Below are positions 375 through 63,044 of a DNA stretch of 64,000 nucleotides, piece after piece. Source of the DNA: Catenuloplanes niger (GTDB lineage Bacteria; Actinomycetota; Actinomycetes; Mycobacteriales; Micromonosporaceae); assembly GCF_031458255.1 (NCBI RefSeq), contig NZ_JAVDYC010000001.1:4845001-4909000 (forward strand). Direction: 5' to 3'. Each line of letters begins with the position of its first letter. The first letter of the stretch is position 1. The notes below the pieces were generated by a model. The model did not search any database. It saw nothing but the letters and a program-made list of their open reading frames with translations, and had not been told where the DNA came from. The position numbers and the translations under genes are program-made.

Positions 375-460
375 TTTGCTCTGCTTACCATCGCAAAGCG
401 CGCATACCGCGCACGCCGCGGCGCCCTTTTCTCCCGTTCTGCGAAGGTAAGCAGAGCAAA
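375..460. repeat. Dispersed inverted-repeat element, copy A
   Basis: The left arm TTTGCTCTGCTTACC is at 375-389 and the right arm GGTAAGCAGAGCAAA at 446-460. They are perfect 15-bp complements with a 56-nt insert. Beyond one mismatch the stem continues for five pairs (TCGCA/TGCGA). The right flank reads GGGAGCGGG. The element fills the gap between two convergent kinase genes, 19 nt after one stop and 17 nt before the other. The insert is too long for an ordinary intrinsic terminator loop, and no U-tract follows. Confidence 0.9.
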
Positions 461-477
461 GGCGCGCGGGAGCGGGG

Positions 478-2076
478 TCAGTCGTCGAGGACGGAGCGGA
501 CGGACTGGAGGAGCCCGCGCTCGGAGAACGGCTTGGCGACCAGCGTGACGTCGTCACCCAGCGTGCCGTTCTCGGTGAGGACCGGGCGGGCGTAGCCGGA
601 CATGAACAGCACCCGGGTGTCCGGCCGCAGCGCGGTGACCCGCTCCGCGACCTCCTTGCCCAGCATCTTCGGCATGATGACGTCGCTGAGCAGCAGGTGG
701 ATCGGCCCGTCGTGGTGGCGCACCAGGTCCAGCGCGCGATCGCCGCCGGGCGCGGTGAGCACCCGGTACCCGTTCCGGGTGAGGATGCGGTGGGTGACGT
801 CGCGCATCGCGTCCTCGTCCTCGACCACCAGCACGGTCTCGCCGCCGCCGGCCGCGACCTCGGGCAGCGTCGAGGTCTGCTGCTCCACGACCGGCAGCGC
901 CTCCTCGCTGGCCGGGACGAGCGCGCTGATCGTGGTGCCGACGTCCGGCTCCGAGTAGATGCTGACCTGCCCGCCGGTCTGCGCGATCGTGCCGTACACC
1001 GTGGCCAGGCCGAGCCCGGTCGCCTCGCCCTTCGGCTTGGTGGTGAAGAACGGCTCGAACGCGCGGTCCGCGACCTCCTTCGGCATGCCCCCGCCGGTGT
1101 CGCTGACCTGCAACCGCACGTACGAGCCGGGGTGCAGCCCGGGCCGGCCGGCCAGGTAGCTCTCGTCCACCGTCACGTTGTCGGTGCCGATGGTCAGGCT
1201 GCCGCCGCCGGGCATCGCGTCCCGCGCGTTGACCGCGAGGTTGACCAGCACCTGGGTGAGCTGACCCGGATCCGCGCGGATCGGCCACAGGTCGGCGGCG
1301 AGCGCGGTCTCCAGCCGCACGTGTTCGCCGATCGTGCGCTGCAGCAGCGCCTCCACCTCACGTACCACCGTGTTGAGGTTGAGCACCCGCGGCTTGACCA
1401 CCTCGCGCCGGCCGAACGCGAGCAGCTGGTGGGTGAGCGAGATGGCGCGTTCCGCGGCGCGCTGGATCTGGTTGATGTCCTTCAGCACCGGATCCCAGCG
1501 GTCCGGGTCGCCGGTCGCGGCGTCGCCGACCTCCTCCGCGATGAACGCGATGTAGTTGAGCACCACCGCGAGCAGGTTGTTGAAGTCGTGCGCGACGCCG
1601 CCGGCCAGCTGGCCGAGGCTCTCCAACCGCTGTGACTGCTGCAGCCGGGCCTCGAGCCGCTCCCGCTCCGCGATCGCGGTCAGGCGTTCCCGTTCGGCCT
1701 GCGCCTCCAGCCGGTCGCTGACGTCCCGGATCGCGGCGGCGATCAACAGCCCCTCGGGGGTACGGATCGCGGACAGCGAGATCTCGGCCGGGAACTCGGA
1801 CCCGTCCCGCCGGCGTGCGGCCAGCGTGCCGGAGCCCATCGGCCGCGGCCGGGCGGCCTGCATGTACTCCTGCCGGTGCGAGGGGTGCGCGTCCCGTGCC
1901 GCCGCCGGGACCAGCATCTCCACGGTCCGGCCGACCAGCTCGTCCCGCCGGTAACCGAGGAGGCGCTCGGCCTGCGCGTTGATCAGCGTGATCCGGCCGT
2001 CCTCGGCCACTACGACGATCGCGTCCGGCGCCGCCTCGAGCAGCCCCTGCGCGTAATCGGTGGACCAGTCCTGCAC
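478..2076 (-). CDS. Hybrid sensor histidine kinase: PAS, HisKA, HATPase, receiver
   Basis: This is a cytoplasmic hybrid kinase of about 532 residues with no membrane segment. It has a PAS domain near residues 10-120, followed by a short coiled coil. The HisKA H box GGVAHDFNNLL puts the phospho-accepting His near residue 163. The HATPase shows NLAVNARDAMP, SDTGGGMP and TGLGLATVYG. The C-terminal receiver has its Asp in LLLSDVIMP near residue 465. The H box type matches NtrB-like hybrid kinases that pass phosphate to their own receiver. I chose the GTG at 2076 because GGAG lies 5 nt upstream. The frame stays open to a GTG at 2169, but that extra stretch does not look like protein. It is convergent with the kinase fragment across element A. 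Confidence 0.85.
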   Translation of the reverse strand: MQDWSTDYAQGLLEAAPDAIVVVAEDGRITLINAQAERLLGYRRDELVGRTVEMLVPAAARDAHPSHRQEYMQAARPRPMGSGTLAARRRDGSEFPAEISLSAIRTPEGLLIAAAIRDVSDRLEAQAERERLTAIAERERLEARLQQSQRLESLGQLAGGVAHDFNNLLAVVLNYIAFIAEEVGDAATGDPDRWDPVLKDINQIQRAAERAISLTHQLLAFGRREVVKPRVLNLNTVVREVEALLQRTIGEHVRLETALAADLWPIRADPGQLTQVLVNLAVNARDAMPGGGSLTIGTDNVTVDESYLAGRPGLHPGSYVRLQVSDTGGGMPKEVADRAFEPFFTTKPKGEATGLGLATVYGTIAQTGGQVSIYSEPDVGTTISALVPASEEALPVVEQQTSTLPEVAAGGGETVLVVEDEDAMRDVTHRILTRNGYRVLTAPGGDRALDLVRHHDGPIHLLLSDVIMPKMLGKEVAERVTALRPDTRVLFMSGYARPVLTENGTLGDDVTLVAKPFSERGLLQSVRSVLDD

Positions 2077-2254
2077 AACGACTCCGGGCTTCCGACGAAA
2101 AACCCCCTTGATCCGTGAATTCTCCCATAAATCGGGCGGCTCGGATGCGCAACCGGCTCGCACCGTCACGGGTCCGGGACCTGCTACGGGCGCGGCCGAA
2201 TCTAGTTCCTGTCAGGCGGTGAGCCGCAGGGGCGGCCGACGGAAGGGTGACACA

Positions 2255-3805
2255 TTGCGCAGGACTCAGGGAGTCTTCGGGACGCTGCTGGCGGGCTCGC
2301 TGGCGGTCGGTGCAATCGCGGGCGCGCCCGCGCAGGCGGCCACGACCACCACGACGCAGCTGTCGGTCTCCGCCTCGGACGACGCCTACACGTCCTCCGC
2401 CCGCAAGAGCCTGACCACCGGCTCGGAGACGAAGCTGGTCGCCGGCACGGTCGCCGGTGACCGCAAGGTCTCCTACCTGAAGTTCACCACCGGCAAGGCC
2501 GCGACCGGCGCGAAGCTGGCGCTGGCGCTGGACGGCGCACCGGCCGGCAGCACGCTGACCGTCACCCGGGTGCTCACCAGCTCGTGGGCCGAGTCCACGC
2601 TGACCTCGACGAACGCCCCGGCGCTGGGCACCACCACGGTGTCCGCGAAGCTGGCCGCCGGCCAGCGGGAGGTCGTCCTCGACCTCGGCGCCCAGATCAC
2701 GGCGGCCGGCACCTACTCGTTCGCGATCAGCTCCAGCTCCACCACCGCGGCCACCCGGATCCACTCCACCGAGCACGGCACCGCGGGCCTGCGCCCGGCG
2801 CTGCGGCTGACCGTGGCCGGCGCGGCCACCCCGGCCCCGGCGACCCCGGCCGCCCCGGTGTCCGGCTGCACCACCGGCGCGAAGCTGGTCCCGACCTGCG
2901 GCGTGCTGTGGGGTGCGGCGGCCGGCGGCTTCACCTCGACCCCGCGGGACACCGCGCTGAAGCAGTGGGAGGCCGCGACCGGCCGTACCGCCGCGATCTA
3001 CCACACGTACCACAAGGGCAACGAGCTGTTCCCGACCAAGGCCGAGCTCGCCATGACGCAGGACGCCGCGAAGCCGCGCACGCTGCTGCTGAACTGGAAG
3101 GTCGCGTACGGCGACACCTGGGCCGGGGTGAAGGCGGGCAAGCAGGACAAGCGCATCGACCGCTGGGCCGCGTACGTCAAGGCGAACGTCAAGAAGCCGT
3201 TCTTCCTGGCGCTGCACCACGAGCCGGAGAACGACGTCAACACCAACCCGGAGTCGGGCATGACCGCCAAGGACTACGCCGGCATGTATCGGCACGTGAT
3301 CCAGCGGCTGCGCGCGAACGGCGTCACCAACGCGATCAACGTGGTCGCCTACATGGGCAACGAGACCTACCTGGCCAAGTCCTGGTGGCCGGACCTGTAC
3401 CCGGGCGACGACGTCGTGGACTGGATCGGCCTGGACTCGTACCTGAACGCGGAGAAGGGCTACCACCACGGCGACTTCAACAACCTGCTCGACCGCGGCC
3501 CGGTCGCCGGCACGAACAAGCTCGGCTTCTACGGCTGGGCGACCACGAAGCACGCCGGTAAGCCGATCATGGTCGCCGAGTGGGGCGTCTACCACAGCCT
3601 GAAGCGCACCGCGGACAAGGGCGCGGTCTTCGACACCGTGCTGAACCAGCTCAAGGCGCGCCCGGCGGTCAAGGCGATGGTCTACTTCGACTGCCCGGCC
3701 GACGACACCGGCGACCGGAACATCGCGGTCACCAGCAGCGCGTCCGCGCTGGCCGCGTTCAAGAAGATCGCGGCTGACCCGATCTTCAACGTCTCGCTCA
3801 AGTAG
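2255..3805 (+). CDS. Secreted GH26-like endo-glycosidase with N-terminal DNRLRE/CBM-like domain
   Basis: The predicted product is 516 residues. The TTG start at 2255 follows GGAAGGG by 7 nt and immediately precedes a signal peptide with cleavage near APAQA-A (about residue 29). Residues 36-187 resemble a DNRLRE/CBM96-type beta-sandwich. A Pro/Ala linker leads to a catalytic barrel from about residue 205. HHEPEND (Glu near 323) and VAEWGVY (Glu near 442) fit the acid/base and nucleophile glutamates of GH26 or a related clan GH-A family. The expected role is cleavage of mannan or a related beta-glycan outside the cell, but the substrate cannot be read from sequence. A strong terminator follows. 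Confidence 0.83.
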   Translation: MRRTQGVFGTLLAGSLAVGAIAGAPAQAATTTTTQLSVSASDDAYTSSARKSLTTGSETKLVAGTVAGDRKVSYLKFTTGKAATGAKLALALDGAPAGSTLTVTRVLTSSWAESTLTSTNAPALGTTTVSAKLAAGQREVVLDLGAQITAAGTYSFAISSSSTTAATRIHSTEHGTAGLRPALRLTVAGAATPAPATPAAPVSGCTTGAKLVPTCGVLWGAAAGGFTSTPRDTALKQWEAATGRTAAIYHTYHKGNELFPTKAELAMTQDAAKPRTLLLNWKVAYGDTWAGVKAGKQDKRIDRWAAYVKANVKKPFFLALHHEPENDVNTNPESGMTAKDYAGMYRHVIQRLRANGVTNAINVVAYMGNETYLAKSWWPDLYPGDDVVDWIGLDSYLNAEKGYHHGDFNNLLDRGPVAGTNKLGFYGWATTKHAGKPIMVAEWGVYHSLKRTADKGAVFDTVLNQLKARPAVKAMVYFDCPADDTGDRNIAVTSSASALAAFKKIAADPIFNVSLK

Positions 3806-3818
3806 GACCCCCCGATGG

Positions 3819-3852
3819 AAGGGCCGCCCGGGAAACATCCCGGGCGGCCCTT
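3819..3852 (+). terminator. Intrinsic terminator after the GH26-like gene
   Basis: A perfect 14-bp GC-rich stem (arms 3819-3832 and 3839-3852) with a 6-nt AAACAT loop is followed by TTCTGTT. It lies 14 nt after the glycosidase stop and just before the next kinase gene. Confidence 0.88.
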
Positions 3853-3873
3853 TCTGTTGCTTAATCTGGTGTA

Positions 3874-5601
3874 ATGCCGAGATTGCAGCGCAGCGTCGCC
3901 GCGCTCGCCGCCGGTGTCGCCGCGCTCGGCATCCTGGCCACCGTCTCGCTCTGCGGCGCGCTGAACGGCCTGGCCGACCGCAACCAGCGGCAGGCGCTCG
4001 ACCGCCGGGTCGACCTGGTCCGGGCCGGTGTCTCCGCCGAGGCCGCCCGGTACGTCGACGCGCTCACCGACGTCGCCACCGCGCTCGGCGCCCAGACCGA
4101 CCTGACCGCGGAGGACTTCACCCGGATCAGCGCCGCGCTGTCCACCCGCCGGCTGCCCGCGCTCACCGCGGTCTCCGTGCTGGTCGCCGTGGACACCGCG
4201 GCGGTGCCGGCCACCCAGGCGTACTGGCGGGCGCAGGGCGCGACCGGGCTGACGCTGCGCCCCGACCCGGCCGAGGACGAGCACGTGTTCGCGGTGCTCA
4301 CCCGCGACTTCGACGGCCGCCCGCAGATGATCGGCCCGGACCTGGCCAAGCGCGCCGAACTGCGCGGTGCGCTGCGGCAGTCCGCGAACACCGGCGCGGC
4401 CGCGATCAGCCGGACGTACGTGCTGGCCCGCGACGAGAACCTGCCGGCCGCCCGGCGTCAGCTGTCGTTCGTGGTCGCGGTGCCGTTCTACCGGCCGACC
4501 GCGGACCGGGTCAGCGGCTGGGCGGTGCTGGGCCTGCGCGGTGGCACGTTCCTCGCCGCGGCCATGCGCAACAGCGCGCTGAGCATGATCGAGGTGGAGC
4601 TGCTGGACTCGTCCGCGGAGGGCATCCGCACGCCGGTCGCGACCTGGCCGGCCGGCGAGGAGCACGGCGACGGCGACCTCACCCGTACCGTCTCCGTCGG
4701 CGTCGCGCAGCGGACCTGGCAGTTGACCGTGAAACCGACCGGCACGCTGGCCGAGGGCGAAGCACCCTGGCTGGTGCCGGCGTCCGCGCTGACCGGGACC
4801 GTGATCACGGCGCTGGTGGTGGGCATCATCGGCATCCTCGGCACGTCCCGCGGGCGCGCGCTGGGCCGGGTCGCGGCCGCCACGGCGGCGCTGCAGGCGG
4901 ACATCGCGCGCCGCGAGGAGACCGAACGGCAGCTCCGCCGCACCGAGGGCGAGCTGCGCGGCTTCCTGGCCATGGCCGGGCACGACCTGAAGGCGCCGCT
5001 GGCCTCGGTGGCCGGTCACGTGGACTTGCTCCGCGACGCACCGGACCGGGACACCGGCGACGCGGACTGGCGGGCCGTGGAACGCGGACTGGCCCGGATG
5101 AACCGGCTGATCGACGACCTGCTCGCGTACGCCACCGCGGACGCGGCGCCGCTCGACCCACGGCCGGTCGACCTGGGCGCGCTGGCCACCGACGTCGCGG
5201 CGGACCAGGACACGGCCGACCACGCCACGGTACGGATCGGCGCGCTGCCCACCGTGCTGGCCGACCCCGGCATGCTGCGGCACGTGCTGGAGAACCTGGT
5301 CGGGAACGCGGTCAAGTACACCCGGCCCGGCGAGACCCCGCAGATCGAGATCGTCTCCGTACCGGCCGGTGCCCGCACCCGGATCGAGGTCGCGGACCAC
5401 GGGATCGGCGTGCCGGAGGTGGACCGGGCCCGGGTCTTCGACGCGTTCCACCGCTCGCCGAACGGCGCCGACCGGCCCGGGACCGGACTCGGCCTGGCCA
5501 TCTGCCAGCGGATCGTGGAACGGCACGGCGGCGAGATCGGCGTGGAGTCGAACGCGGGTGGCGGCAGCCGGTTCTGGTTCACGCTGCCCGGCGGCGGCTA
5601 G
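3874..5601 (+). CDS. Membrane sensor histidine kinase with CHASE-type sensor
   Basis: The product is 575 residues. A first membrane helix lies near residues 8-30 and a second near 301-323. They enclose an extracytoplasmic region of about 270 residues that reads like a CHASE domain (for example RAQGATGLTLRPDP and VVAVPFYRPT). A linker coiled coil follows. The HisKA H box is MAGHDLKAPLASV (His near 370). The HATPase shows LENLVGNAVKYT, VADHGIGVP and GTGLGLAICQRIVERHGG. No partner response regulator is adjacent, so it is an orphan kinase here. The ATG start follows the terminator by about 20 nt. Confidence 0.86.
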   Translation: MPRLQRSVAALAAGVAALGILATVSLCGALNGLADRNQRQALDRRVDLVRAGVSAEAARYVDALTDVATALGAQTDLTAEDFTRISAALSTRRLPALTAVSVLVAVDTAAVPATQAYWRAQGATGLTLRPDPAEDEHVFAVLTRDFDGRPQMIGPDLAKRAELRGALRQSANTGAAAISRTYVLARDENLPAARRQLSFVVAVPFYRPTADRVSGWAVLGLRGGTFLAAAMRNSALSMIEVELLDSSAEGIRTPVATWPAGEEHGDGDLTRTVSVGVAQRTWQLTVKPTGTLAEGEAPWLVPASALTGTVITALVVGIIGILGTSRGRALGRVAAATAALQADIARREETERQLRRTEGELRGFLAMAGHDLKAPLASVAGHVDLLRDAPDRDTGDADWRAVERGLARMNRLIDDLLAYATADAAPLDPRPVDLGALATDVAADQDTADHATVRIGALPTVLADPGMLRHVLENLVGNAVKYTRPGETPQIEIVSVPAGARTRIEVADHGIGVPEVDRARVFDAFHRSPNGADRPGTGLGLAICQRIVERHGGEIGVESNAGGGSRFWFTLPGGG

Positions 5602-5627
5602 CCGGCGCTCCCGGCGGCACGCACACG

Positions 5628-5711
5628 GCCGGCCGGACCGAGGTCAGCGCGGCCGGCCGGCCGGACCGAGGTCGGCGCCGCCAGCCGGTCAGACCGAGGT
5701 CAGCTTCGCCT
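5628..5711. repeat. Three 28-bp imperfect tandem repeats across a gene 3' end
   Basis: GACCGAGGTC recurs at 5636, 5664 and 5692 with exact 28-bp spacing, inside a GGCCGG-rich unit. The third copy overlaps the stop and last codons of the minus-strand glycosyltransferase. The other two lie beyond the stop, as if the gene's 3' end had been tandemly duplicated. Confidence 0.75.
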
Positions 5712-6699
5712 GGAGCTCGGCGACCAGCACCTTCATCTCGGTGAGCGCGGCCGGGCCGTGCCGGCGCCCGGCCGTGTCCACCACCCGGCCGACGTTGCTC
5801 AGCAGGCGCGCGGCCTCGTCGACCTCGCCGAGCTGGGCCAGGGCCTGTGCGGCGAGCCAGTCGCAGTACGAGGACTCCGCGCCGGCCGCGCGCAGGTCCT
5901 CGACCAGCACCAGCGCGACCTCGTCCATCCCCTCGGCCAGCATCAGCTGCGCCAGCTGGTCGGTGCCCTGCAGCCGCTCCCGGGTGCGCGGGAACAGCTC
6001 GCGCAGCAACTCCAGCGTGTCCACCGCGTCCTGCCGGTGCCCGGCGACGATGCAGCTGCGCCCGAGGTCGAGCAGCGTGCGGGCGATCCGGTCCCGGTTG
6101 CCCGCCGGGTCCGCGGCCAGGTCGTCCAGCTGCACCCGGCCGAGCAGCACGTTGCGCAGCGCCTTGGCCTCACGGCGGTCCGCGGTCGCGTAGCCGGCGT
6201 GCACGATCCGGGCCACGTCGCGGGGGAGCGCGGCGAGCCGCAGCGTGCCGTCGCGCGCGGTGATCTGTTCGTGGATCCGCCTGGTCCACGTCGTGCGGTC
6301 CGGGCGGAACAGCCGCGCCGCCCGGAACGTGACGGCACTGTCCTGCCGGTCGCTGTCGATCTCCAGCGTGGCCGCGTCCGCGTCCGTGCCGGCGAGCAGC
6401 TCGCGCAGCCGGCCGGCGTTCGCCACGACGTGCTCGTCCGCGTCCACGGAGAGCACCCAGTCCGCGGTCCAGCCGTGCAGCGCCGCGTTGCGCGCGTCCG
6501 CGAAATGGTCGGTCCAGGGCCCGGTGGTGACGCACGCGCCGGCCCGCGTGGCGACCTCCGGGCTGCCGTCGGTGGAGCCGGTGTCGTGCACGTGGATCTC
6601 GTCGACCACGCCGTGCAGCGAGTCCAGGCAGCGGGACAGCAGCTCCGCCTCGTCGCGCACGATGATCGCGGCGGCCAGCTTGAGGTTCGCGCTCACCAC
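5689..6699 (-). CDS. Family 2 (GT-A) glycosyltransferase
   Basis: The product is 336 residues. The N terminus is a GT-A fold: AAAIIVRDEAELLSRCLDSL, then DTGSTDGSPEVA, then VLSVDADEHV, which holds the metal-binding D-x-D. The C-terminal half from about residue 190 is helical with TPR-like spacing. This is a common layout for bacterial family 2 enzymes that act on unknown glycans or peptides. The start is a GTG without a clear Shine-Dalgarno. It lies 39 nt downstream of the methyltransferase, so the two genes and the SDR probably form one operon. Donor and acceptor are unknown. Confidence 0.83.
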   Translation of the reverse strand: MVSANLKLAAAIIVRDEAELLSRCLDSLHGVVDEIHVHDTGSTDGSPEVATRAGACVTTGPWTDHFADARNAALHGWTADWVLSVDADEHVVANAGRLRELLAGTDADAATLEIDSDRQDSAVTFRAARLFRPDRTTWTRRIHEQITARDGTLRLAALPRDVARIVHAGYATADRREAKALRNVLLGRVQLDDLAADPAGNRDRIARTLLDLGRSCIVAGHRQDAVDTLELLRELFPRTRERLQGTDQLAQLMLAEGMDEVALVLVEDLRAAGAESSYCDWLAAQALAQLGEVDEAARLLSNVGRVVDTAGRRHGPAALTEMKVLVAELQAKLTSV

Positions 6700-6738
6700 C
6701 GGCCGATCGGCCGTACCGACGCGGTCCTGAGGTTTTTG

Positions 6739-8280: not shown

Positions 8281-8464
8281 CCCTCGATCCTGCCGTACGC
8301 GCCGGAACCGCCCGTGACGCCGGGGGCACGCGGAGGAATGAGTTGGATCACGTGCGGCTGCGGGAGTGCATGTCCGGCGAAAATCTGCGGGGAAGATGGG
8401 TCGGCGCGGCGTGGTTGGAAACCACGGCGTAAAAATCGCAACAATTGATCCGCTGGAGGCGACC

Positions 8465-10275: not shown

Positions 10276-10405
10276 CGGACATCACGTCATGTGATCGTTC
10301 GAACAGGTGTTTGCCATTGTGTCAAGATCCGCTTCGCAACTACCGTCGGACGGGCGGTATGTGGGGGAATCGGTGCCCGGGGGGACACCGAGCCGGCGGC
10401 GGCCA

Positions 10406-10437: not shown

Positions 10438-10447
10438 CGCCGCCGGT

Positions 10448-15338: not shown

Positions 15339-15344
15339 CACGGT

Positions 15345-29747: not shown

Positions 29748-30317
29748 CCCGGAACCCCGAAGCGCATCTTCCCGCTCCCGGCGTCCCCGGTCCCGCGTGC
29801 TCCCGCGGGCACCGGTCGGCCGTGGCCGGCCTCCCTGCCGGTCCCGCACACACTGAAACCCCCACCCGCGCACCCCGTGCTCGTAACGGCGCGTAATCCC
29901 GCACGCCTCGAGCCCGGCCCCACCCCCACCCAAACGATCTCCCCACCCCCCTTTGCTCTGCTTACCTACGCCACTTTGCTCTGCTTACCTACCCGGCGTC
30001 GTAGTGATATGGGCGTCGATACCGAAACAAGCAGAAGGCCGGATTTGCGGCCTAAAGTGCGCGTTGCCCTGAAACCAGGCAACAGATTCAGGCGCTTTGT
30101 CCATGTAAGCAGAGCAAATATGGGTGGGAAGCGGGCCCGGGCGGCGGGGGCGTTACGAGGCGTGACGGGTGCCGTGGGAAGTGGCGCGGGTGGGAATCGC
30201 GGAGTTGTGGTGAGTCGGTGCGCGACGGGACGGGCGGCGCGCGGAGTTCTGGATCCTCCGGAGGTGGGGTTGATCGGGATCTTTGGATTGTCGATCGGGG
30301 GTGGGGAGGATGGGGGC
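29748..30317. other. 570-bp intergenic region containing element B
   Basis: No convincing gene is present. The first 200 bp are C-rich on the plus strand. Element B occupies 29952-30118. From 30119 to the next start the plus strand is strongly G-rich (runs such as GGGTGGG and GGCGGGGG), a skew that continues into the next gene. Confidence 0.7.
29952..30118. repeat. Dispersed inverted-repeat element, copy B (doubled left arm)
   Basis: Two tandem left arms TTTGCTCTGCTTACCT are at 29952-29967 and 29975-29990, 23 bp apart. One right arm TGTAAGCAGAGCAAA is at 30104-30118. The insert can fold further: AAAGTGCGC/GGCGCTTT encloses a GTTGCC...GGCAAC hairpin, and GGCC...GGCC lies beside it. The right flank reads GGGAAGCGGG. 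It lies 205 nt downstream of the acyltransferase stop. Confidence 0.9.
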
Positions 30318-45429: not shown

Positions 45430-46091
45430 CCACCACCGTGCTTCACGCCACCCGGCCATCCCCACCCGGCCCGGCCTATCCCCGTCGGCCACCCTCGCGC
45501 CCACTGCGGCCCCGCCCCCTCGCCGTCGCGAAGGGCCCGCCCGGCCTCCGGTGACGAGATCAACTCGACATGTGCCCCGCGCCTCACGGCCGCCCTCCGG
45601 ACTGCCGCAGTTTGTCGCTCATCGGCACCACCGACACCCACCCCTGGCTGACCGCCCCCCGGCTCTTGCCGGCTCCCGATCCCCGGCCGCCGGCCCGATC
45701 GAGCACCCGCATCCGCTCCAGAGGCCATTCCGGCGCCTTTCGAATCCATCATTCCGCACTCGATCAATCGACACCAACCGATTGAATAGACCGTGATCGT
45801 GACCGATTGGACCCCAATTTAGCGTGACCGATCGGTCCGCGATTCATCACTTTAAGTAACGGCCGTCTCCGCCGCCCCGTCTGCCCTTCCGCATCCTTTG
45901 CTCTGCTTACCTTGGCGGCGCGCGGATCTGCGCTGGTCATTCCGTCAAGTGGCGCCGGATGTGCGCATGTAAGCAGAGCAAAGTTTTGGGGTGGGGGTGG
46001 GGGGAGGGGAGGTGGGGGGTTACGGAGGGTGAAGGGTGGGGGGAGGTGGCGGGGTGGCTGGGGAGTGCGGGTGTGGGGCAGAGTGCGCGGC
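45430..46091. other. 662-bp intergenic region with AT-rich dyads, element C and a G-rich tract
   Basis: No gene is convincing. At 45765-45784, CAATCG-N8-CGATTG forms a dyad. CGTGACCGATYGG repeats at 45798 and 45823, 25 bp apart, and the second copy holds the palindrome ACCGATCGGT. This AT-richer patch is followed by element C (45897-45982). A strongly G-rich plus-strand tract runs from 45986 to about 46075. Confidence 0.65.
45897..45982. repeat. Dispersed inverted-repeat element, copy C
   Basis: The left arm TTTGCTCTGCTTACCT is at 45897-45912 and the right arm TGTAAGCAGAGCAAA at 45968-45982. Fourteen bp pair perfectly, with a 55-nt insert. The total length is 86 bp, the same as copy A. CATGTAAGCAGAGCAAA is identical to the right end of copy B. 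Unlike the other copies the right flank is a longer G-run (GGGGTGGGGG) rather than AGCGGG. It lies 467 nt after the padR stop. Confidence 0.9.
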
Positions 46092-46679
46092 ATGACGAGG
46101 GCGAAGAGGCGGCGGAGAGGGCGGGCTGCAGGGTATGGGCGGCCGGTGCTGCGGGGTGGGGGTGGTGGGTTTCCGGTGTCGGGGTTGGTGCGGCGGGCGC
46201 GGCGGATGTCGGACATGAGTCAGCGGGATCTGGCGCGGTGGGCGGAGGTGTCGGCGGCGGCGGTGGCGCGGGTGGAGACGGGTGGGCTGGCGCCGAGCGT
46301 GGCGTTGCTGGAACGGATGCTGGGCGTGGCGGGACTGCATCTGGTGGTGGTGGATCCGGAAGGGCGGATCGTGCAGCCGATGCGGGTGTGGGACGAGACG
46401 TACGACGGGGCGGGGCGGCGGTACCCGGCGCACCTGTCGACGATTCTGGACCCGCGGGCGGGGGAGTGGTGGGGCGACCAGTACGGGCTGGCACGTCCGC
46501 CGGAGACCTTTCACCGGTCACCTGAGTTGCGGGAGCGGCAGCGGCGGCGGAGCCAGTGGGAGGTGCGGGTGGCGCAGTTCCGGAACGTACCGCCGCCGCC
46601 GATGTGCACGGTGTGGCTGGAGGACGGGAGGCCCGCCACCGGGTGGGGTGACGGGCCTCTGGGGATCGCGGACGGGTAG
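46092..46679 (+). CDS. XRE-family helix-turn-helix protein
   Basis: The product is 195 residues from the ATG at 46092. After a basic N terminus (TRAKRRRRGRA) the HTH reads LVRRARRMSDMSQRDLARWAEVSAAAVARVETGGLAPSVALLERMLGVAGLHLVV, a single XRE domain. The C-terminal 100 residues are of unknown family, with PMRVWDETYDGAGRRYPAHLSTI. The gene is unusually G-rich on its coding strand and follows element C and the G-tract, so local base composition or transfer may be involved. It is convergent with the nuclease gene, with 15 nt between them. Confidence 0.8.
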   Translation: MTRAKRRRRGRAAGYGRPVLRGGGGGFPVSGLVRRARRMSDMSQRDLARWAEVSAAAVARVETGGLAPSVALLERMLGVAGLHLVVVDPEGRIVQPMRVWDETYDGAGRRYPAHLSTILDPRAGEWWGDQYGLARPPETFHRSPELRERQRRRSQWEVRVAQFRNVPPPPMCTVWLEDGRPATGWGDGPLGIADG

Positions 46680-52861: not shown

Positions 52862-52908
52862 GTCCGCGTGACTGCCGGAACCGGTGCGTGCCGCCGTACC
52901 CTCTTGTC

Positions 52909-56170: not shown

Positions 56171-56726
56171 CCCACCGCGCTCGGGCGCCGTGACCGTGCC
56201 CCGGCGCACCATGTCCGGCATCTGCACCTATCACGCCATTCACGCCGCTTCGTCCGGCTTCCACCCCGTACTCCGGCAGGCTTTGCTCTGCTTACCTGGC
56301 ACAAACCGGGCGGATCGGCGCCGTCGATGTGTCGGTCGCCGACAGGTAAGCAGAGCAAAAGCAGCGGGAAAGCGGGATCGATGGTTGTTCGCGACGGGTG
56401 GAGCGTGGCGCGGCGGAACCCGGGTGCGGGGGTCACTACGAGGCTGTGTCGATCTTCGGCTCGGCCGCTGCGGTGGGGCGGTCCGGCCTGACGAGGAGTG
56501 GAACCGGCCTGACGAGAGCGCGGAACGGTGGCCGGTTCCGGCAGCGGCGCCGGTCCGTTAGGGGGCGCCGGTCCGGCAGCGACAACCGGCAGCAGCGACA
56601 ACCGGCAGCGGCGCCGGGGCGGCAGCGGCGGGCCGGAGCGGATGCACGTGGCTGCCGAAGGCGCGGTGGATCAAGGGTGAGGCCGGCGTGGCCTGGTGGG
56701 CGGGGCCGCGCGTGGCGGCCCCGTCC
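56171..56726. other. 556-bp intergenic region with element D and short tandem repeats
   Basis: It lies between the convergent cyclase-ATPase and korB genes. Element D is at 56282-56359. Around 56485-56640, short motifs recur: CCGGCCTGACGAG twice, GGCGCCGGTCCG twice and CAGCGACAACCGGCAG twice in tandem. No gene is convincing. Confidence 0.65.
56282..56359. repeat. Dispersed inverted-repeat element, copy D
   Basis: The left arm TTTGCTCTGCTTACCT (56282-56297) and right arm AGGTAAGCAGAGCAAA (56344-56359) pair perfectly over 16 bp with a 46-nt insert, the shortest of the family. GTCGG-TCG-CCGAC forms a hairpin inside. The right flank reads GGGAAAGCGGG. It lies 112 nt after the cyclase-ATPase stop. 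Confidence 0.9.
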
Positions 56727-57743
56727 TCAGATCGTCCAGGTGTCGCCCGCGTGCAGCAGGCCGGTCAGCTGCTCCTCGGGCGTGCCGGTCGCGGCCTCGC
56801 GGGCGTCCGCGACCTGCTGCTGCAGCACCTCGTCGTAGGTGGGCCGGGACACCGCGCGCAGCACGCCGATCGGGGTGTTGCGCAGGTCGAGGGCGGGCAG
56901 GCGGGACAGCGCGAACGCGTACGCCGGATCCGTCACCGTCTCGTCGTGCACCACGATTTCTGCCGGGTCGACGGACGCGGTGGGCCGGACCGACAGGCCG
57001 AAGCCGCCGGGCGGGTGCACCACGCACGAGTCGCCGAACGTGATCGGCTGCCCGTGCTCCAGCCGGATCAGGTACTCGTCCCGCGTACCCACGTCCTTGA
57101 GGGTCTCGAACGCGCCGTCGTTGAAGATGTTGCAGTTCTGGTAGATCTCCACGAACGCCGAACCGCGGTGCGCGGCCGCGGCGCGCAACACCGACTGCAG
57201 GTGCTTGCGGTCCGAGTCGATGGTGCGGGCGACGAACCCGGCCTCCGCGCCGAGCGCCAGCGACAGCGGGTTGAACGGCGCGTCCGCGGACCCGACCGGC
57301 GTCGACTTGGTGACCTTGCCGAGCTCGGAGGTCGGCGAGTACTGCCCCTTGGTCAGCCCGTAGATCCGGTTGTTGAACAGCAGGATCTTCAGGTTGACGT
57401 TCCGGCGCAGCGCGTGGATCAGGTGGTTGCCGCCGATCGACAGCGCGTCGCCGTCCCCGGTGACCACCCAGATGGACAGGTCGGGCCGGGTGGCGGCCAG
57501 CCCGGTCGCGATCGCCGGCGCGCGGCCGTGGATCGAGTGCATGCCGTACGTGTTCATGTAGTACGGGAAACGCGACGAGCACCCGATGCCGGAGATGAAG
57601 ACGATCCGTTCACGCGGGATGTTCAGCTCCGGCATGAAGCCCTGCACCGCGGCCAGGATCGCGTAGTCCCCGCAGCCGGGACACCAGCGCACCTCCTGGT
57701 CGGACTTGAAGTCCTTCGCGGTGAGTTTCAGCAGCTCAGCCAT
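56727..57743 (-). CDS. korB: 2-oxoglutarate:ferredoxin oxidoreductase, beta subunit
   Basis: The product is 338 residues. WCPGCGDYAIL supplies two cluster cysteines and FISGIGCSSRFPYY another. The thiamine-pyrophosphate site is VVTGDGDALSIGGNHLIHALRRNVNLKILLFNN. With KorA it oxidatively decarboxylates 2-oxoglutarate to succinyl-CoA using ferredoxin. This is an alternative TCA step in actinobacteria (Rv2454c). Its start overlaps the korA stop by 8 nt, so the pair is translationally coupled. Confidence 0.94.
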   Translation of the reverse strand: MAELLKLTAKDFKSDQEVRWCPGCGDYAILAAVQGFMPELNIPRERIVFISGIGCSSRFPYYMNTYGMHSIHGRAPAIATGLAATRPDLSIWVVTGDGDALSIGGNHLIHALRRNVNLKILLFNNRIYGLTKGQYSPTSELGKVTKSTPVGSADAPFNPLSLALGAEAGFVARTIDSDRKHLQSVLRAAAAHRGSAFVEIYQNCNIFNDGAFETLKDVGTRDEYLIRLEHGQPITFGDSCVVHPPGGFGLSVRPTASVDPAEIVVHDETVTDPAYAFALSRLPALDLRNTPIGVLRAVSRPTYDEVLQQQVADAREAATGTPEEQLTGLLHAGDTWTI

Positions 57744-59580
57744 TCTTCACCACGTCCTCCAACGCGGACTCCAGCTCGCCCGCCGTGAACGGCAGACCGC
57801 TGACCTTGTTGAACGGCAGCGCGTCCACCAGGAACCGGCCCCGGATCACGTGCGCGAGCTGCCCCAGGTTCATCTCCGGGACGACCACCCGGTCGTACCG
57901 TTTCAGGATCTGTTCCAGGTTGGCCGGCATCGGGTGCAGGTGACGCAGGTGCGCCTGGGCGATGGTCAGCCCGCGCTGCCGCAGCGCCCGGCACGCCGCC
58001 CCGATCGGCCCGTACGTCGAGCCCCAGCCGAGCACCAGCACGCTCGCCGAACCGTCCGGGTCGTCCACGGTCACGTCCGGCACCGGGATCGTCTCGATGC
58101 GCTGCGCCCGGGTGCGCACCATCAGGTCGTGGTTCGCCGGGTCGTACGAGATGTCGCCGGTCTTGTCCGCCTTCTCCAAGCCGCCGATCCGGTGCTCCAG
58201 CCCGGGGGTGCCCGGGATCGCCCACGGCCGCGCCATCGTCGCCGGGTCCCGCAGGTACGGCAGGAACCGCCCGTCCGGTGAGTTGGCCGCGGACGCGAAC
58301 TCGACGGTCAGGTCCGGCAGCGACGCCACGTCCGGCAGCAGCCACGGCTCCGACCCGTTCGCCACGTAGTTGTCGGACAGCAGGATCACCGGCGTGCGGT
58401 AGGTGAGCGCGATCCGGGCCGCCTCGATCGCGGCGTGGAAGCAGTCCGACGGCGACTGCGGCGCGATCACCGCGACCGGTGCCTCGCCGTGCCGGCCGAA
58501 CAGCGCCATGTTCAGGTCGGCCTGCTCGGTCTTGGTCGGCATGCCGGTCGACGGGCCGGCCCGCTGCACGTCCACGATCACCAGTGGCAGCTCCAGCGCC
58601 ACGGCCAGCGAGATCGTCTCGCCCTTCAGCGCGACACCGGGCCCGCTGGTGGTGGTGACGCCGAGCGCGCCGCCGTAGGACGCGCCGAGCGCGGCACCGA
58701 TCGCCGCGATCTCGTCCTCCGCCTGCATGGTGGTGACGCCGAGCCGCTTGTGCTTGGACAGCTCGTGCAGGATGTCCGACGCCGGCGTGATCGGGTAGGC
58801 GCCGAGGAAGAGCGGCAGCCTCGCGCGCACCCCGGCGGCCACCAGGCCGAGCGCGAGCGCGGTGTTCCCGGTGATGTTGCGGTACGTCCCGGCGGCCATC
58901 GGCGCGGGCGCGATCTCGTACCGCACCGCGAACGCCTCGGTCGTCTCGCCGAAGTTCCACCCGGCGCGGAACGCGGCCTGGTTCGCCGCGACCAGCTCCG
59001 GCCGGGCCGCGAACTTCCGTTCCAGGAACCGCAGTGTGGACTCGAACGGGCGCGAGTACAGCCAGCTCAGCAGCCCGAGCGCGAACATGTTCTTGGCCCG
59101 CTCGGCGTCCTTCTTCGACACTCCGGCGTCCGCCAGCGCGGCCACGGTCATCGAGGTCAGCGCGACCGGGTGCACCGCGAACCGGGACAGCGAGCCGTCC
59201 TCCAGCGGATTCGCCGCGTACCCCACCTTGACGAGGCTGCGCTTGCTGAACTCGTCCGTGTTGACGATGATCACGGCGCCCGCGGGCAGCTCCGGCAGGT
59301 TCGCCTTGAGCGCGGCCGGGTTCATCGCGACCAGCACGTCCGGCGCGTCGCCCGGCGTCAGGATGTCGTAGTCGGCGAAGTGCACCTGGAAGCTGGAGAC
59401 GCCGGGCAGCGTGCCGGCCGGCGCACGGATCTCGGCGGGGAAGTTGGGGAGCGTGGAGATGTCGTTGCCGAGCTGCGCCGTCTCCGACGTGAACCGGTCA
59501 CCGGTGAGCTGCATGCCGTCACCGGAGTCGCCCGCGAAGCGGATGACCACCCGATCCAGCCGGCGCACCTGCTTGCTCAT
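57736..59580 (-). CDS. korA: 2-oxoglutarate:ferredoxin oxidoreductase, fused gamma-alpha subunit
   Basis: The product is 614 residues from the ATG at 59580, with GGGAG upstream. Residues 1-190 are the gamma domain (IRFAGDSGDGMQLTGDRF and NFPAEIRAPAGTLPGVSSFQVHF). Residues 220-610 are the alpha pyrimidine-binding and C-terminal domains (GAYPITPASDILHELSK, GVTTTSGPGVALKGE, VDVQRAGPSTGMPTKTEQADL). The fused gamma-alpha layout is typical of the two-subunit KGOR. It is divergent from nuoA. Confidence 0.95.
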   Translation of the reverse strand: MSKQVRRLDRVVIRFAGDSGDGMQLTGDRFTSETAQLGNDISTLPNFPAEIRAPAGTLPGVSSFQVHFADYDILTPGDAPDVLVAMNPAALKANLPELPAGAVIIVNTDEFSKRSLVKVGYAANPLEDGSLSRFAVHPVALTSMTVAALADAGVSKKDAERAKNMFALGLLSWLYSRPFESTLRFLERKFAARPELVAANQAAFRAGWNFGETTEAFAVRYEIAPAPMAAGTYRNITGNTALALGLVAAGVRARLPLFLGAYPITPASDILHELSKHKRLGVTTMQAEDEIAAIGAALGASYGGALGVTTTSGPGVALKGETISLAVALELPLVIVDVQRAGPSTGMPTKTEQADLNMALFGRHGEAPVAVIAPQSPSDCFHAAIEAARIALTYRTPVILLSDNYVANGSEPWLLPDVASLPDLTVEFASAANSPDGRFLPYLRDPATMARPWAIPGTPGLEHRIGGLEKADKTGDISYDPANHDLMVRTRAQRIETIPVPDVTVDDPDGSASVLVLGWGSTYGPIGAACRALRQRGLTIAQAHLRHLHPMPANLEQILKRYDRVVVPEMNLGQLAHVIRGRFLVDALPFNKVSGLPFTAGELESALEDVVKNG

Positions 59581-59814
59581 GCCGGACTCCCATCCGAGCC
59601 GCGGCCCCAGCGCGGTCGGCGCCGAGCCGATGGTTCGCTCCCGAGCTCGCTCATGCCTGCACCCTTCGATCGCCTCAGGGGTTGTGTGCCAGAACACACC
59701 ATTCCAGAGCCTACGTCGATTCCGCGACTTACGGCTGTCGCGAGATCGACCCAGCGTGGCGGAGCCGGCCGACGGGCGTGTGCCGCGGCCGGCCGGCGAC
59801 TAGGCTCGTCGAGC

Positions 59815-60192
59815 GTGGAGGGATACCTCGGGTCGTACGCCACGCTCGGCCTGTTGCTGCTGGCCAGCGTGCTGATCTTCGTGGCCGCGTTCGGGGCGAA
59901 CCGGCTGCTCCGCCCGGCCGCGCCGGCCGACCCGTTCGGCAAGCGCGAGCCGTACGAGTGCGGGCTCGACCCGGTCGGCGGCGACTGGGCGCAGGCGCAG
60001 ATCAGGTACTACGTCTACGCGTACCTCTACGTGCTCTTCGCCGTGGAGAGCGTCTTCCTGTTTCCCTGGGCGGTGGTCTTCGACCGGCCCGGCTTCGGGG
60101 TCACCACTGTGGTGGAAATGGCAGTATTCGTGGCCGTTCTGGCGCTCGGGATCCTCTACGCCTGGCGCAAGAACGTCCTCCGCTGGAGCTGA
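59815..60192 (+). CDS. nuoA: NuoA-like subunit, not followed by other nuo genes
   Basis: The product is 125 residues from the GTG at 59815, with three membrane helices. The loop PFGKREPYECGLDPVGG and helix YAYLYVLFAVESVFLFPWAVVF are clearly NuoA. The acidic pair normally read as FDxE is here FAVE: the Asp is Ala76, while Glu78 is kept. No nuoB or other complex I gene follows in the remaining 3.8 kb. In Streptomyces a second, partial nuo cluster lies close to korAB (from memory), so this may be a remnant of one. Confidence 0.88.
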   Translation: MEGYLGSYATLGLLLLASVLIFVAAFGANRLLRPAAPADPFGKREPYECGLDPVGGDWAQAQIRYYVYAYLYVLFAVESVFLFPWAVVFDRPGFGVTTVVEMAVFVAVLALGILYAWRKNVLRWS

Positions 60193-60245
60193 CCCACGGG
60201 GTGGCGGTCTCGCCATGATCGGTCCGCCATGTCACGATCCCCGCT

Positions 60246-60731
60246 ATGGGTCTGTTCATCACTCTCGTCACGGCGCTCGTCGTCGCGGCGATCATCTTCG
60301 GCGTCACGGTCCTGGTCAGCGGCAGCGACCCCGCACTGGTCCCGGCGGAGCCGGACGGCCGGGCCGTGCCGCTGCCGGGCAGCCGCCCGCTGCTGGAGGC
60401 CGACATCGCCGACGTCCGCTTCGACACCGCGCTGCGGGGTTACCGGATGGCCCAGGTGGACCAGGCACTGCGCCGCGCCGCCTACGACATCGGGTACAAG
60501 GAGGAGCTGATCGGCGTGCTCGAGGCCGAGGTCGCCGCGCTCCGGGACGGCCGTCTCGACGACGCGGACGCGCTGCGCAAGGCCCGGGAGGAGGCGCTCG
60601 CGCCGGCCGCACCGGCCACCACCGAGCCAGTTGCCGAAAACAACGACAATTCCGGCGGTACGTCGGAGAGCGCCACGGTTGCCGTAAAGACCGACGAGCC
60701 GGCCGCGACCGACTCTACGGTGAAGGCATGA
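60246..60731 (+). CDS. DivIVA-domain protein with N-terminal membrane helix
   Basis: The product is 161 residues. A membrane helix at residues 3-25 is followed by a DivIVA/SepIVA-like segment, LLEADIADVRFDTALRGYRMAQVDQALRRAAYDI, and a coiled coil to about residue 115. The C-terminal tail is Ala/Thr/Glu-rich and disordered. Such proteins sit at the membrane and may aid cell-wall growth, but the role here is inferred. Its stop overlaps the next start (ATGA). Confidence 0.85.
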   Translation: MGLFITLVTALVVAAIIFGVTVLVSGSDPALVPAEPDGRAVPLPGSRPLLEADIADVRFDTALRGYRMAQVDQALRRAAYDIGYKEELIGVLEAEVAALRDGRLDDADALRKAREEALAPAAPATTEPVAENNDNSGGTSESATVAVKTDEPAATDSTVKA

Positions 60732-61225
60732 CCCAGCCCGACCCGGCCGAGAACCTCCGGGAGGCCGCCACCCCCGGCGCCGGCGAGGTGACCGCGACCG
60801 TGATCGTCAACGCGCCCGCCGCCACCGTCTTCGCCGCGTTCACCGCGTGGACCAAGCAGTCCGAATGGATTCCGTTCACCAAGGTCCGCGTGGTCGAGGG
60901 CGACGGCGGCGAGGGCAGCCTGGTCGAGGCCGTCACCGCGATCGGCCCGGCCGTGCTCCGCGACGAGATGCGCGTGGTCCGCGTCGACGCCCCCTACGAG
61001 GTGCGCGTCGTGCACTGCGGGAAGTTCCTGCGCGGCCCCGGCGTGCTCCGCTGCACCCCGATGGAGAACGACCGGACCCAGGTCGTCTGGCACGAGTGGT
61101 TCCACCTCCCCGCCGGTGCCCTCGGCAAGGTCACCTGGCCGTTCCTCTGGCCCGGCTCCAAGGTCAGCCTCAAGCAGGCGCTGAAGAGGTTCGCCACCAT
61201 GGTCGAGAACGGGCGCCTCCCGTAG
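60728..61225 (+). CDS. SRPBCC/polyketide-cyclase-like lipid-binding fold protein
   Basis: The product is 165 residues. The START-like fold is seen in VTATVIVNAPAATVFAAFTAWTKQSEWIPFTKVRVVEG and the C-terminal helix SLKQALKRFATMVENG. No catalytic residues can be named. It is translationally coupled to the DivIVA-like gene. It may bind a hydrophobic ligand; the function is unknown. Confidence 0.85.
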   Translation: MTQPDPAENLREAATPGAGEVTATVIVNAPAATVFAAFTAWTKQSEWIPFTKVRVVEGDGGEGSLVEAVTAIGPAVLRDEMRVVRVDAPYEVRVVHCGKFLRGPGVLRCTPMENDRTQVVWHEWFHLPAGALGKVTWPFLWPGSKVSLKQALKRFATMVENGRLP

Positions 61226-61261
61226 CGGAGCCTGTCGTACCCCGCGCCTATCGTGGGCCGC

Positions 61262-61831
61262 ATGTCTGACCTGGTCGTGGGCGAGGACGGTCTCGCCCGC
61301 TGCACGTGGGGCGCCAGCACGCCCGATTACGCGCTCTACCACGACCGCGAGTGGGGCCGTCCGGTGCGCGACGACGACGGGCTCTACGAGCGGCTCACGC
61401 TGGAGGCGTTCCAGTCCGGCCTGTCCTGGCTGACCATCCTGCGCAAACGTCCGGCGTTCCGGGCCGCGTTCGCCGGCTTCTCGATCGCGGCCGTCGCCGA
61501 GTTCGGCCCGGACGACGAGGCCCGCCTGATGGCCGACGCCGGCATCGTCCGCAACCGACTCAAGATCGAAGCCGCACTGGCGAACGCGCGGGCCGCGCTG
61601 GACCTGCCGGAAGGCCTGGCCGCGCTGCTCTGGTCGTTCGCCCCGCCGCCCCGCCCGCGCCCGGCGACGAACGCCTCCGTTCCCGCGCTCACCCCCGAGT
61701 CCACCGCCATGGCCAAGGCACTGAAGAAGCGCGGCTTCCGCTTCGTCGGCCCCACCACGGCGTACGCGTTGATGCAGGCCACCGGCATGGTCGACGATCA
61801 CCTCCAAGACTGTCACGTCCGGATCGTGTGA
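61262..61831 (+). CDS. tag: DNA-3-methyladenine glycosylase I
   Basis: The product is 189 residues from the ATG at 61262. CTWGASTPDYALYHDREWGRPVRDD, TLEAFQSGLSWLTILRKRPAFR, GIVRNRLKIEAALANARA and GPTTAYALMQATGMVDDHLQDC are family hallmarks. The Tag zinc snap fits the early Cys, with the late His/Cys in QDCHVRIV. It removes 3-methyladenine from alkylated DNA in base-excision repair. Confidence 0.95.
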   Translation: MSDLVVGEDGLARCTWGASTPDYALYHDREWGRPVRDDDGLYERLTLEAFQSGLSWLTILRKRPAFRAAFAGFSIAAVAEFGPDDEARLMADAGIVRNRLKIEAALANARAALDLPEGLAALLWSFAPPPRPRPATNASVPALTPESTAMAKALKKRGFRFVGPTTAYALMQATGMVDDHLQDCHVRIV

Positions 61832-61893
61832 CGCGCGCCCGGCGTGTCCGGGGTCTTGGCTCCGGCCCCGCGCGTCCGTGGTGAGATGGGCAC

Positions 61894-62454
61894 ATGGTGC
61901 AGCAGTGGGCGATTGTGCTTCCGGACGAGCGGCTGAAGCAGGAGCGGCTCTACCACCACGACTTCGTGGAACTCGCCGACGTGCTCGCCGAGATCCCGGC
62001 GTCCGCGCACCCGGAGCTCGGTGACGAGGTCGTGCTGGTCACGGACGAGCCGACGCCGCGCGCGGTCGCGACCGGCCACATCGGCGGCCTGCGCACCAAC
62101 GACGAGGACCGCCGCCAGGTCGTCTACTCCCGCCGTGCCTTCGACCAGCCCCAGCCCGCCGGTTCGCTCCACCTCGACGGCCCCGTCACCCGCGTCACGC
62201 CGGCCGAGTTCGCCGCCGTGCTCGAGCGCTTCGGCCCCCCGCTCGAGCGCAGCACCTGGCTGGTCAGCCTCGACCTGCCGATCGAGGCCACCACGCGCGC
62301 CGAGGCCGTCCGCCTCTTCTGGTCGTACGTCCGCGAACTCGGCCCCGCCGAACTCCCCGCCTTCGTCTCCCCGTCCGGCGACGAACTCGCCATGCAGGCC
62401 TTCGTCCTAGGCGAGGAGACCAACCTCGACCCCGAGGAAGAAGACGAGGACTGA
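61894..62454 (+). CDS. Conserved protein of unknown function
   Basis: The product is 186 residues. It has no membrane segment and ends in a run of acidic residues (DPEEEDED). The recognisable segments are QWAIVLPDERLKQERLYHHDFVELADVLAEI, GDEVVLVTDEPTPRAVATGHI and DLPIEATTRAEAVRLFWSYVRELG. I do not recognise the family. Codon use matches its neighbours. Element E begins 115 nt after the stop. Confidence 0.8.
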   Translation: MVQQWAIVLPDERLKQERLYHHDFVELADVLAEIPASAHPELGDEVVLVTDEPTPRAVATGHIGGLRTNDEDRRQVVYSRRAFDQPQPAGSLHLDGPVTRVTPAEFAAVLERFGPPLERSTWLVSLDLPIEATTRAEAVRLFWSYVRELGPAELPAFVSPSGDELAMQAFVLGEETNLDPEEEDED

Positions 62455-63044
62455 GTTTTTGGTCGTCGCTCCGCTCCTCCGGCTCGGGCGCTCTCGGGCG
62501 CCCTCACGTGGGCGGTCGCGATTCGCGCATGATTCAAACCCACCCGGCAGGGTCGGCTCTCCGCGGGTCTTTGCTCTGCTTACCTAGCTCAAAATTGCGG
62601 CACGTGACGTGCGCTAATGCCTGCTGAGCAGGCACAGCCGGGTCGGCGGGTCTGTTGCGGCGTCAGGCCGGTATGAGCGCCGGCCGAACGGCACGCGTGC
62701 GGTGGGCCCTCGCGAGAGAACCGGATCCCGGGCGGTGGATTCGTGGTGGTTCGTGCCGCTGCGGCGATAGGCGTGCGTCGGAGCTCCGCTGATCAGCCCG
62801 CGATGGGCGCCGAGATGGCAGCGACGGCCTGAGAAGGGCGTCAGCTGGGCATACGCGACCGCGCTGAGCAACGTTGAGCTAGGTAAGCAGAGCAAAGTGT
62901 GCGGGTGAGCGGGGGATCGGCGGTCGGAGGGAGCGAGCCGGGGGCCGGGTGGCGATCGGTGGGGCGGTGAGGGTGATGGGGGCGGCGAGGCGCCGCCGAC
63001 GGGCGGGTGGGCCGGGCGGCGGCGGTGCCGGTGGTGGGTGGAGG
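62455..63044. other. 590-bp intergenic region dominated by element E
   Basis: It lies between convergent genes. Element E covers 62569-62897. From 62898 to 63044 the plus strand is G-rich (GGGGGATCGG, GGGGGCGGCGAGGC), as after copies B and C. No gene is visible. Confidence 0.7.
62569..62897. repeat. Dispersed inverted-repeat element, copy E (longest)
   Basis: Perfect 24-bp arms (62569-62592 and 62874-62897) contain the family core TTTGCTCTGCTTACCT, extended inward by AGCTCAA. The insert is 281 nt. Two short hairpins lie near its left end: GCACG-TGA-CGTGC (62600-62612) and TGCCTGC-TGA-GCAGGCA (62618-62634). The right flank reads GGGTGAGCGGG. No protein-coding frame inside is convincing. It may be the full-length form of the family. 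Confidence 0.9.

Follow-up and report, generated by a model that had tools for sequence, protein, structure and literature searches.

A 64,000-nucleotide stretch of the Catenuloplanes niger chromosome (contig NZ_JAVDYC010000001.1, positions 4,845,001 to 4,909,000), here called the window, carries five intergenic loci at which copies of a 14-nt sequence, TTTGCTCTGCTTAC, face one another as the arms of an inverted repeat. These loci belong to a repeat family that is clustered in one stretch of the chromosome and conserved in position among related species; its arms are nearly invariant while its inserts diverge, and within the cluster it lies predominantly between convergent genes. Our tentative reading, to which we give slightly less than an even chance, is that a palindromic intergenic repeat of Micromonosporaceae left old copies at the five loci and that its arms have been selected as protein-binding sites in Catenuloplanes; the protein and its presumed role at boundaries are what we infer from these sequence patterns. 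Palindromic interspersed repeats are usually regarded as scattered selfish DNA; the present one crowds into a single conserved stretch of the chromosome, its ends apparently under selection while its interior drifts. If a protein does bind the arms, a mobile palindrome would have been turned into a set of chromosome or transcription boundary sites.

Eleven exact arms are present in the window, grouped at five loci at which left arms always precede right arms (Table 1); an exact arm was defined throughout as the 14 nt TTTGCTCTGCTTAC, with the reversed arm sequence serving as control. Shuffling of the window yielded a mean of 0.66 matches with up to three mismatches allowed, and none of 100 shuffles reached eleven, which makes a chance origin of the arms highly improbable. 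An earlier note on this DNA, made from its letters alone, had also considered five chance matches implausible and had located the same five loci, all of which are present with exact arms. Some of its details required correction: the second locus has three arms, two direct left arms and one right arm; the inserts, given as 46-281 nt, measure 58, 139 (116 from the second left arm), 58, 50 and 299 nt between the 14-nt arms; and the arm has a GC content of 43%, not about 50%.

Neither condition named in the earlier note as refuting an element family holds here: the repeat is not confined to the window, and in this genome single arms are not as frequent as facing pairs. The whole genome (9.74 Mb, one contig) holds 20 forward and 15 reverse exact arms, against none for the reversed control, and these make up 17 loci: at 14 the facing arms are exact, at one the arm opposite has two mismatches, and two loci are one-directional; arms with one mismatch occur at five further places and arms with two mismatches at nine. 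Exact arms were also found in 55 of 300 Micromonosporaceae genomes, representing 13 of 44 genera (reversed control: none). The true element family envisaged in the earlier note is borne out, with a patchy distribution in Micromonosporaceae.

With dnaA located at 4,335,396, 15 of the 17 loci fall 0.37-0.80 Mb downstream of it. The four Catenuloplanes genomes that could be compared in this respect (G000, which is the present one, G001, G003 and G004; a fifth, G002, is in 130 contigs and was left unplaced) have 15 of 17, 16 of 27, 13 of 23 and 21 of 39 loci, respectively, 0.30-0.85 Mb downstream of dnaA, and their densest 430 kb hold 15, 16, 13 and 20 loci, compared with maxima of 7-10 in 2000 random placements for each genome. 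The site is accordingly restricted mainly to one domain, and to the same domain in related species, as in the matS/MatP system. The arm-bearing loci of these four regions form 24 groups, eight of them confined to a single species, and for 13 of the 15 cluster loci in the present genome one or more of the three other species bears arms at the corresponding locus; as the loci are common by descent, the regions represent mainly one ancestral cluster that has been retained. A terminus domain, an idea prompted by the position of the cluster in the middle of the contig, was ruled out because the location of dnaA makes the cluster origin-side; two frames near the contig start, where dnaA was also sought, gave no family match. 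G000 and G001 each have one parS-like site (up to two mismatches) within the stretch; G003 and G004 have none. Segments of the window, and of the region next to it, find matches of 84-90% across kilobases in Catenuloplanes japonicus contigs L090 and L073; one segment of 677 bp matches at 76%. A separate arm pair lies about 5 kb downstream of dnaA in G001 (7,673,207) and G004 (8,039,792).

Conservation at these loci is centred on the arms. Where a locus is a simple facing pair in both species compared, all 28 arm positions agree in 28 of 32 comparisons, while the inserts are 65-75% and the flanks 74-81% identical over aligned bases; these comparisons derive from few loci, are non-independent and require recognisable arms in both species. 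For example, the arms of elements 3 and 4 of the window are unchanged in three other species, and the locus of element 5 has inserts of 299, 63, 280 and 267 nt in four species between the same arms. Once that last requirement was dropped and 159 exact arms were sought within the orthologous interval in a second species, 131 were exact, five had one to three mismatches and 23 had four or more and were scored as absent, and hence arms are mostly either intact or gone; for this, 75 of 89 locus-by-genome comparisons could be anchored and 14 were dropped. Within 400 nt of exact arms, a count that misses loci without any remaining exact arm, the four genomes contain 139, 24, 14 and 5 arms with zero, one, two and three mismatches, respectively, and the reversed control gives no such match. 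The copies with one or two mismatches contain 52 substitutions, 37 of them in the outer TTT and five in the GCTCTGC core.

The inserts behave differently. Non-orthologous inserts of similar length (1037 pairs, four genomes) have a mean alignment score of 0.016, versus -0.080 for shuffled partners, on a scale where identity equals 1, and the mean for orthologous inserts is 0.238. The claim that the inserts do not resemble one another is thus nearly, though not entirely, correct, as a slight residual similarity exceeds that of shuffled partners; an alignment of 42 elements, orthologs included, likewise gives a faint majority consensus beside the arms, CTGG.CGAA ... TT.G..CAG. The most similar non-orthologous pair scores 0.34, so no recent duplicate was found. 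Since the arms are nearly invariant while the inserts of different loci can hardly be aligned, we read the pattern as suggesting purifying selection on the arms.

The loci also occupy a particular gene context, as determined with a home-made codon-usage gene caller. None of the 62 loci of the four regions overlaps a called gene; 46 are flanked by convergent genes, 9 and 7 by tandem genes and not one by divergent genes, compared with 145 convergent, 425 tandem and 246 divergent cases among 816 comparison spacers of at least 60 bp. For this genome alone, 12 of 15 loci are convergent. Within the cluster, therefore, the earlier note was right to place the elements at gene 3' ends.

In the scenario that we favour, the genus would have been seeded by an ancestral mobile palindrome, the arms of which, and the GCTCTGC core in particular, became or stayed sites for a sequence-specific DNA-binding protein; recognition of sequence is called for because the stem sequence is invariant. 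Two facing sites, which tend to be spaced in steps of about 10-11 bp and are perhaps on the same helix face, could be bridged by the bound protein in 3'-3' gene junctions, and such bridging would mark a boundary, either of transcription or of chromosome folding, without touching promoters. A boundary role is suggested by the occurrence of paired sites in gene-end junctions, and a chromosome-domain role by their concentration in one origin-side stretch. Left-to-right arm distances group at 62-66, 72-77, 83-86, 94 and 104-106, with further values of 100, 110 and 122. In a Rayleigh test for a 10.5-bp period the 28 non-redundant values of the cluster give p=0.0018 and the 49 values below 160 give p=0.032; the placement of both sites on one helix face is on this evidence suggestive only.

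Sequence beyond the arms is likewise distinctive. Beyond the right arm G outnumbers C at 57 of the 58 loci with enough non-coding sequence, and beyond the left arm C outnumbers G at 48 of 57, in both cases regardless of gene direction; scored for the same skew, 149 of 266 and 137 of 318 control spacers are positive. Of 84 flanks, 27 carry a G-quadruplex motif on the G strand and none carries one on the opposite strand, compared with 6 and 7 of 754 control spacers on the two strands. As the skew is independent of gene direction and the motifs exceed those of control spacers, the G-rich tail seems to be part of the element. The tract at 45983-46095 of the window, long and with G runs of the G-quadruplex-capable kind, is an extreme instance of this general feature.

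Several observations weigh against arms maintained as protein-binding sites. A binding site for a dimeric protein is the best fit of the three explanations offered in the earlier note, but the protein itself was not found in a search confined to the REP transposase family. The spacing test was post hoc, made once the values were known; its signal is weak outside the cluster (p=0.25, n=13, with G002 excluded as a source of possible orthologs), its period is not sharp, 10 and 11.5 fitting equally well or better, and a few ancestral inherited lengths could explain the spacing classes. In arrays, the match scored for an arm in another species may be a neighbouring arm, and some non-orthologous inserts reach scores as high as those of orthologous ones. 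Because the four genomes share their loci by descent, the 24 groups represent few independent events, and loci that have lost one or both arms exist. Genome-wide, with up to three mismatches, the arm has 135 matches and the reversed control 158, so that weakly decayed lone arms are indistinguishable from chance. Furthermore, 22 facing-arm loci outside the cluster or in other genera (from 20 pieces of Actinoplanes sp. NBRC 103695 and 20 chosen loci, some of them Catenuloplanes) comprise five convergent, 15 tandem and two divergent cases, so the bias is not seen there, and 16 of 23 loci inspected in that Actinoplanes genome are one-directional, only seven being facing.

A more specific proposal is that an origin-side domain, on one replichore only, might be marked by pairs of protein-binding sites in convergent junctions, in a layout resembling that of matS but derived from a mobile palindromic repeat; we consider it unlikely. 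An excerpt of PMC3330122 gives matS, which is bound by MatP, as a 13-bp target with 23 repeats in an 800-kb domain. The present arms are comparable in being a short invariant site that recurs along a single stretch of chromosome about as densely (15 loci in 0.43 Mb), but they lie on the origin side, 0.37-0.80 Mb from dnaA, rather than at the terminus, and are paired and non-palindromic.

The main rival to selected protein-binding sites is a purely selfish repeat, and an RNA stem is the second. The former would be a non-autonomous mobile palindrome whose arms are kept identical for a transposase, the cluster being the result of local spread and the 3' junctions representing tolerated insertion sites; we regard this as a real but minority possibility. 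It accords with the dispersed, length-uniform copies in genome G012 (10 of 12 fetched copies of 76 bp) and in Rugosimonospora africana (G024; all eight fetched copies of 66-67 bp), the inner parts of which are like ACGCATCACC or CTATACGCAACAC, and with the patchy distribution across the family. Empty sites in relatives, which the earlier note had proposed to look for, were indeed found: element 1 (375-460) is present in G001 and G004 and has an armless site in G003, and the element G004_7384070 is missing from G001 and G003. Tandem and multi-arm forms also occur. Like miniature inverted-repeat transposable elements (MITEs), the elements are short and gene-free, have inverted terminal repeats and show occupied and empty sites in relatives, although the flanks at these sites are too diverged and too GC-rich for a target-site duplication to be read. 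However, no two non-orthologous Catenuloplanes copies have closely similar inserts, for which reason the copies look old, and yet the arms at fixed loci stay exact. Five wide facing pairs, of 532 and 898 nt in G004 and of 1219, 3200 and 3430 nt in Actinoplanes sp. NBRC 103695, are without a recognised transposase: the two of G004 contain no gene-like frame, and seven predicted proteins from the other three include Fic-domain, ABC-transport and MerR-type proteins, with three of the seven lacking any Pfam match. The REP transposase family (PF01797) has no match in any of the five Catenuloplanes genomes, in G012 or in the Actinoplanes genome (G153); among 21 genomes searched it is present in three, namely the arm carriers Rugosimonospora africana and G011 and the armless G032, and no arms were found near PF01797 genes at the five loci returned. 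The MITE-like element of the earlier note may thus account for the origin of the family, given the uniform dispersed copies and the empty sites, but not for strict arm conservation at fixed loci.

The second rival holds that the arms form the stem of an RNA hairpin at the ends of both converging mRNAs, stopping or stabilising the transcripts. Folding of three of the five window elements gave strong structure on both strands (z -4.1 to -6.9, six folds), cluster loci lie at gene 3' ends, and the DNA upstream of the element is C-rich for both converging genes, as would suit Rho loading. Among ten copies of G012, one of five pair-count measures leans to structure (further pair types, 17 versus 14.3, with 31 of 500 shuffles as high), but 67 of 500 shuffles reach the observed pairing. 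Covariation was judged beyond the arms, which vary too little for compensatory changes to be tested, and none was seen within four subfamily sets (inner p 0.47, 0.61, 0.45 and 0.11; outer p 0.33, 1.0, 0.31 and 0.49). A pooled set of 76 pairs had given a strong inner signal (none of 1000 shuffles) and was treated as an artefact of mixed genera, because the signal vanished both when subfamilies were taken singly and when G012 copies were aligned. Base pairing by itself does not call for an invariant stem sequence such as is seen here; a T run (TTTT) lies beyond the hairpin at one of ten outer sides in the window, and a terminator scan of that one locus detected no terminator-like site; and Rfam 15 at gathering thresholds returned no match across the whole window. 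Moreover, the skewed flank is also present where no gene ends (right side of 9 of 9 '++' loci, left side of 5 of 7 '--' loci), and one-directional arms are common in Actinoplanes. The structured RNA at 3' ends proposed in the earlier note is in consequence left without covariation support and with a single T run, and we consider it unlikely.

That the facing arms are recombination sites inverting the insert, as identical facing arms around a variable segment might suggest, is very improbable, since orthologous inserts align better forward (mean 0.238) than inverted (0.085), the inverted direction winning in 9 of 61 orthologous pairs, by 0.02-0.14, among inserts that are partly palindromic.

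MITEs and small palindromic interspersed repeats such as ERIC and RUP are short, gene-free and intergenic with inverted ends, and the present elements resemble them in these respects, in having empty sites in relatives and in reaching many copies in some genomes; they differ in that the Catenuloplanes copies are internally too diverged to be recent, keep their arms at fixed loci and are crowded in one stretch. REP/BIME elements, which go with RAYT (Y1) transposases, are similar in that their units occur singly, in direct rows or facing with variable linkers in intergenic DNA, yet no RAYT-type gene is found in the five Catenuloplanes genomes and the 14-nt arm is not itself palindromic. BOX elements are modular, with a varying number of an internal unit, a property shared by the present repeat. 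It differs from those pneumococcal repeats (an excerpt of PMC3049150) in sequence and host, the invariant part here being the arm. A literature search by pieces of the arm and by keywords did not find the family among the titles and abstracts listed, although subscription journals were thinly covered and this is not proof of novelty.

Outside Catenuloplanes the family takes several forms. In Actinoplanes sp. NBRC 103695 the inner parts read CTATACGCACC or CTATAGGAAGC, and 9 of 11 one-directional loci in tandem gene context have GTAAGCAGAGCAAA on the coding strand, as do two of three other loci, one of these two being a second copy of the same Actinoplanes record. Of the 82 exact arms in the same genome, 36 are on a single contig of 463 kb, C4. 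Synteny of this cluster with the Catenuloplanes stretch was rejected: of 421 predicted proteins of that stretch compared with 20 Actinoplanes pieces (16 of them from C4, covering 320 of 463 kb), 25 were matched, 18 of these at below 50% identity, and the two were taken as different regions. Some loci of genus g4, probably Micromonospora given an 88-91% match of L400 to Micromonospora sp. C95, carry a second arm type, TTTGCTCTGCTTCAACC. A class-wide search found the arm in five of 394 genomes, namely this one and four of 1.3-1.5 Mb with a single match each, and the 14-nt arm is in none of 24 genomes from other families of the order. A 12-nt core matches 19 of 61 relatives, but single such matches mean little because the reversed control matches five of 61. 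A facing pair in Actinoallomurus soli (L094), one arm of which has one mismatch, indicates that the family is not strictly limited to Micromonosporaceae. At least 118 stretches of genome contigs match, and among the matches listed ten have at least two arms with up to one mismatch, eight of them facing; at least 120 stretches of viral contigs match, those listed having one match each, and these were taken as chance.

Table 1. Arms of the five elements in the 64-kb window and an example of a G-rich flank (window positions)
Feature	Position	Strand	Remarks
Element 1, left arm TTTGCTCTGCTTAC	375..388	+	Exact match; element 375-460, convergent gene junction
Element 1, right arm	447..460	-	Exact match
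Element 2, first left arm	29952..29965	+	Exact match; element 29952-30118, tandem genes either side
Element 2, second left arm, direct repeat	29975..29988	+	Exact match; overlooked in the earlier note
Element 2, right arm	30105..30118	-	Exact match; G001 counterpart carries left arms only
Element 3, left arm	45897..45910	+	Exact match; element 45897-45982, tandem genes either side
Element 3, right arm	45969..45982	-	Exact match; followed by TTTT and a long G-rich tract
Element 4, left arm	56282..56295	+	Exact match; element 56282-56359, convergent gene junction
Element 4, right arm	56346..56359	-	Exact match
Element 5, left arm	62570..62583	+	Exact match; element 62570-62896, convergent gene junction
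Element 5, right arm	62883..62896	-	Exact match; G-rich tract beyond
G-rich outer flank, example	45983..46095	+	Directly beyond element 3 right arm

Nine window genes adjoining elements were scanned for families and comprise a hybrid histidine kinase, an acyltransferase, a luciferase-like monooxygenase, a PadR protein, a helix-turn-helix protein, an adenylate-cyclase domain, a thiamine pyrophosphate (TPP) enzyme, an enoyl-CoA hydratase and one protein without a family, a variety in which no shared function is visible.

A second repeated module, GGACCGGCTCCG.CGCGGCGGCCGGAGCGG, occurs about 80-110 nt from some arms (L036:19022-19056; G003 near 5376.1 and 5407.5 kb); with up to six mismatches it has ten matches in the four regions, five of them within 110 nt of an arm. 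One arm-pair element lies between tandem duplicates of fliQ (PF01313; L036:18370-18600 and L036:19228-19458), which share 88% nucleotide identity and are both also matched in three other species; a fliQ match likewise adjoins arms in Actinoplanes sp. NBRC 103695 (L431). An IS110-family transposase gene (PF01548, PF02371; L035:9787-10992) starts 68 bp past the right arm of one element, the G004 ortholog of this locus appearing without that stretch. Finally, the arms at loci L052 and L062 of genome G026 are embedded in larger repeated palindromic DNA common to both, and L062 has an additional hairpin around GACCAGCAGAG..CTCTGCTGGTC.

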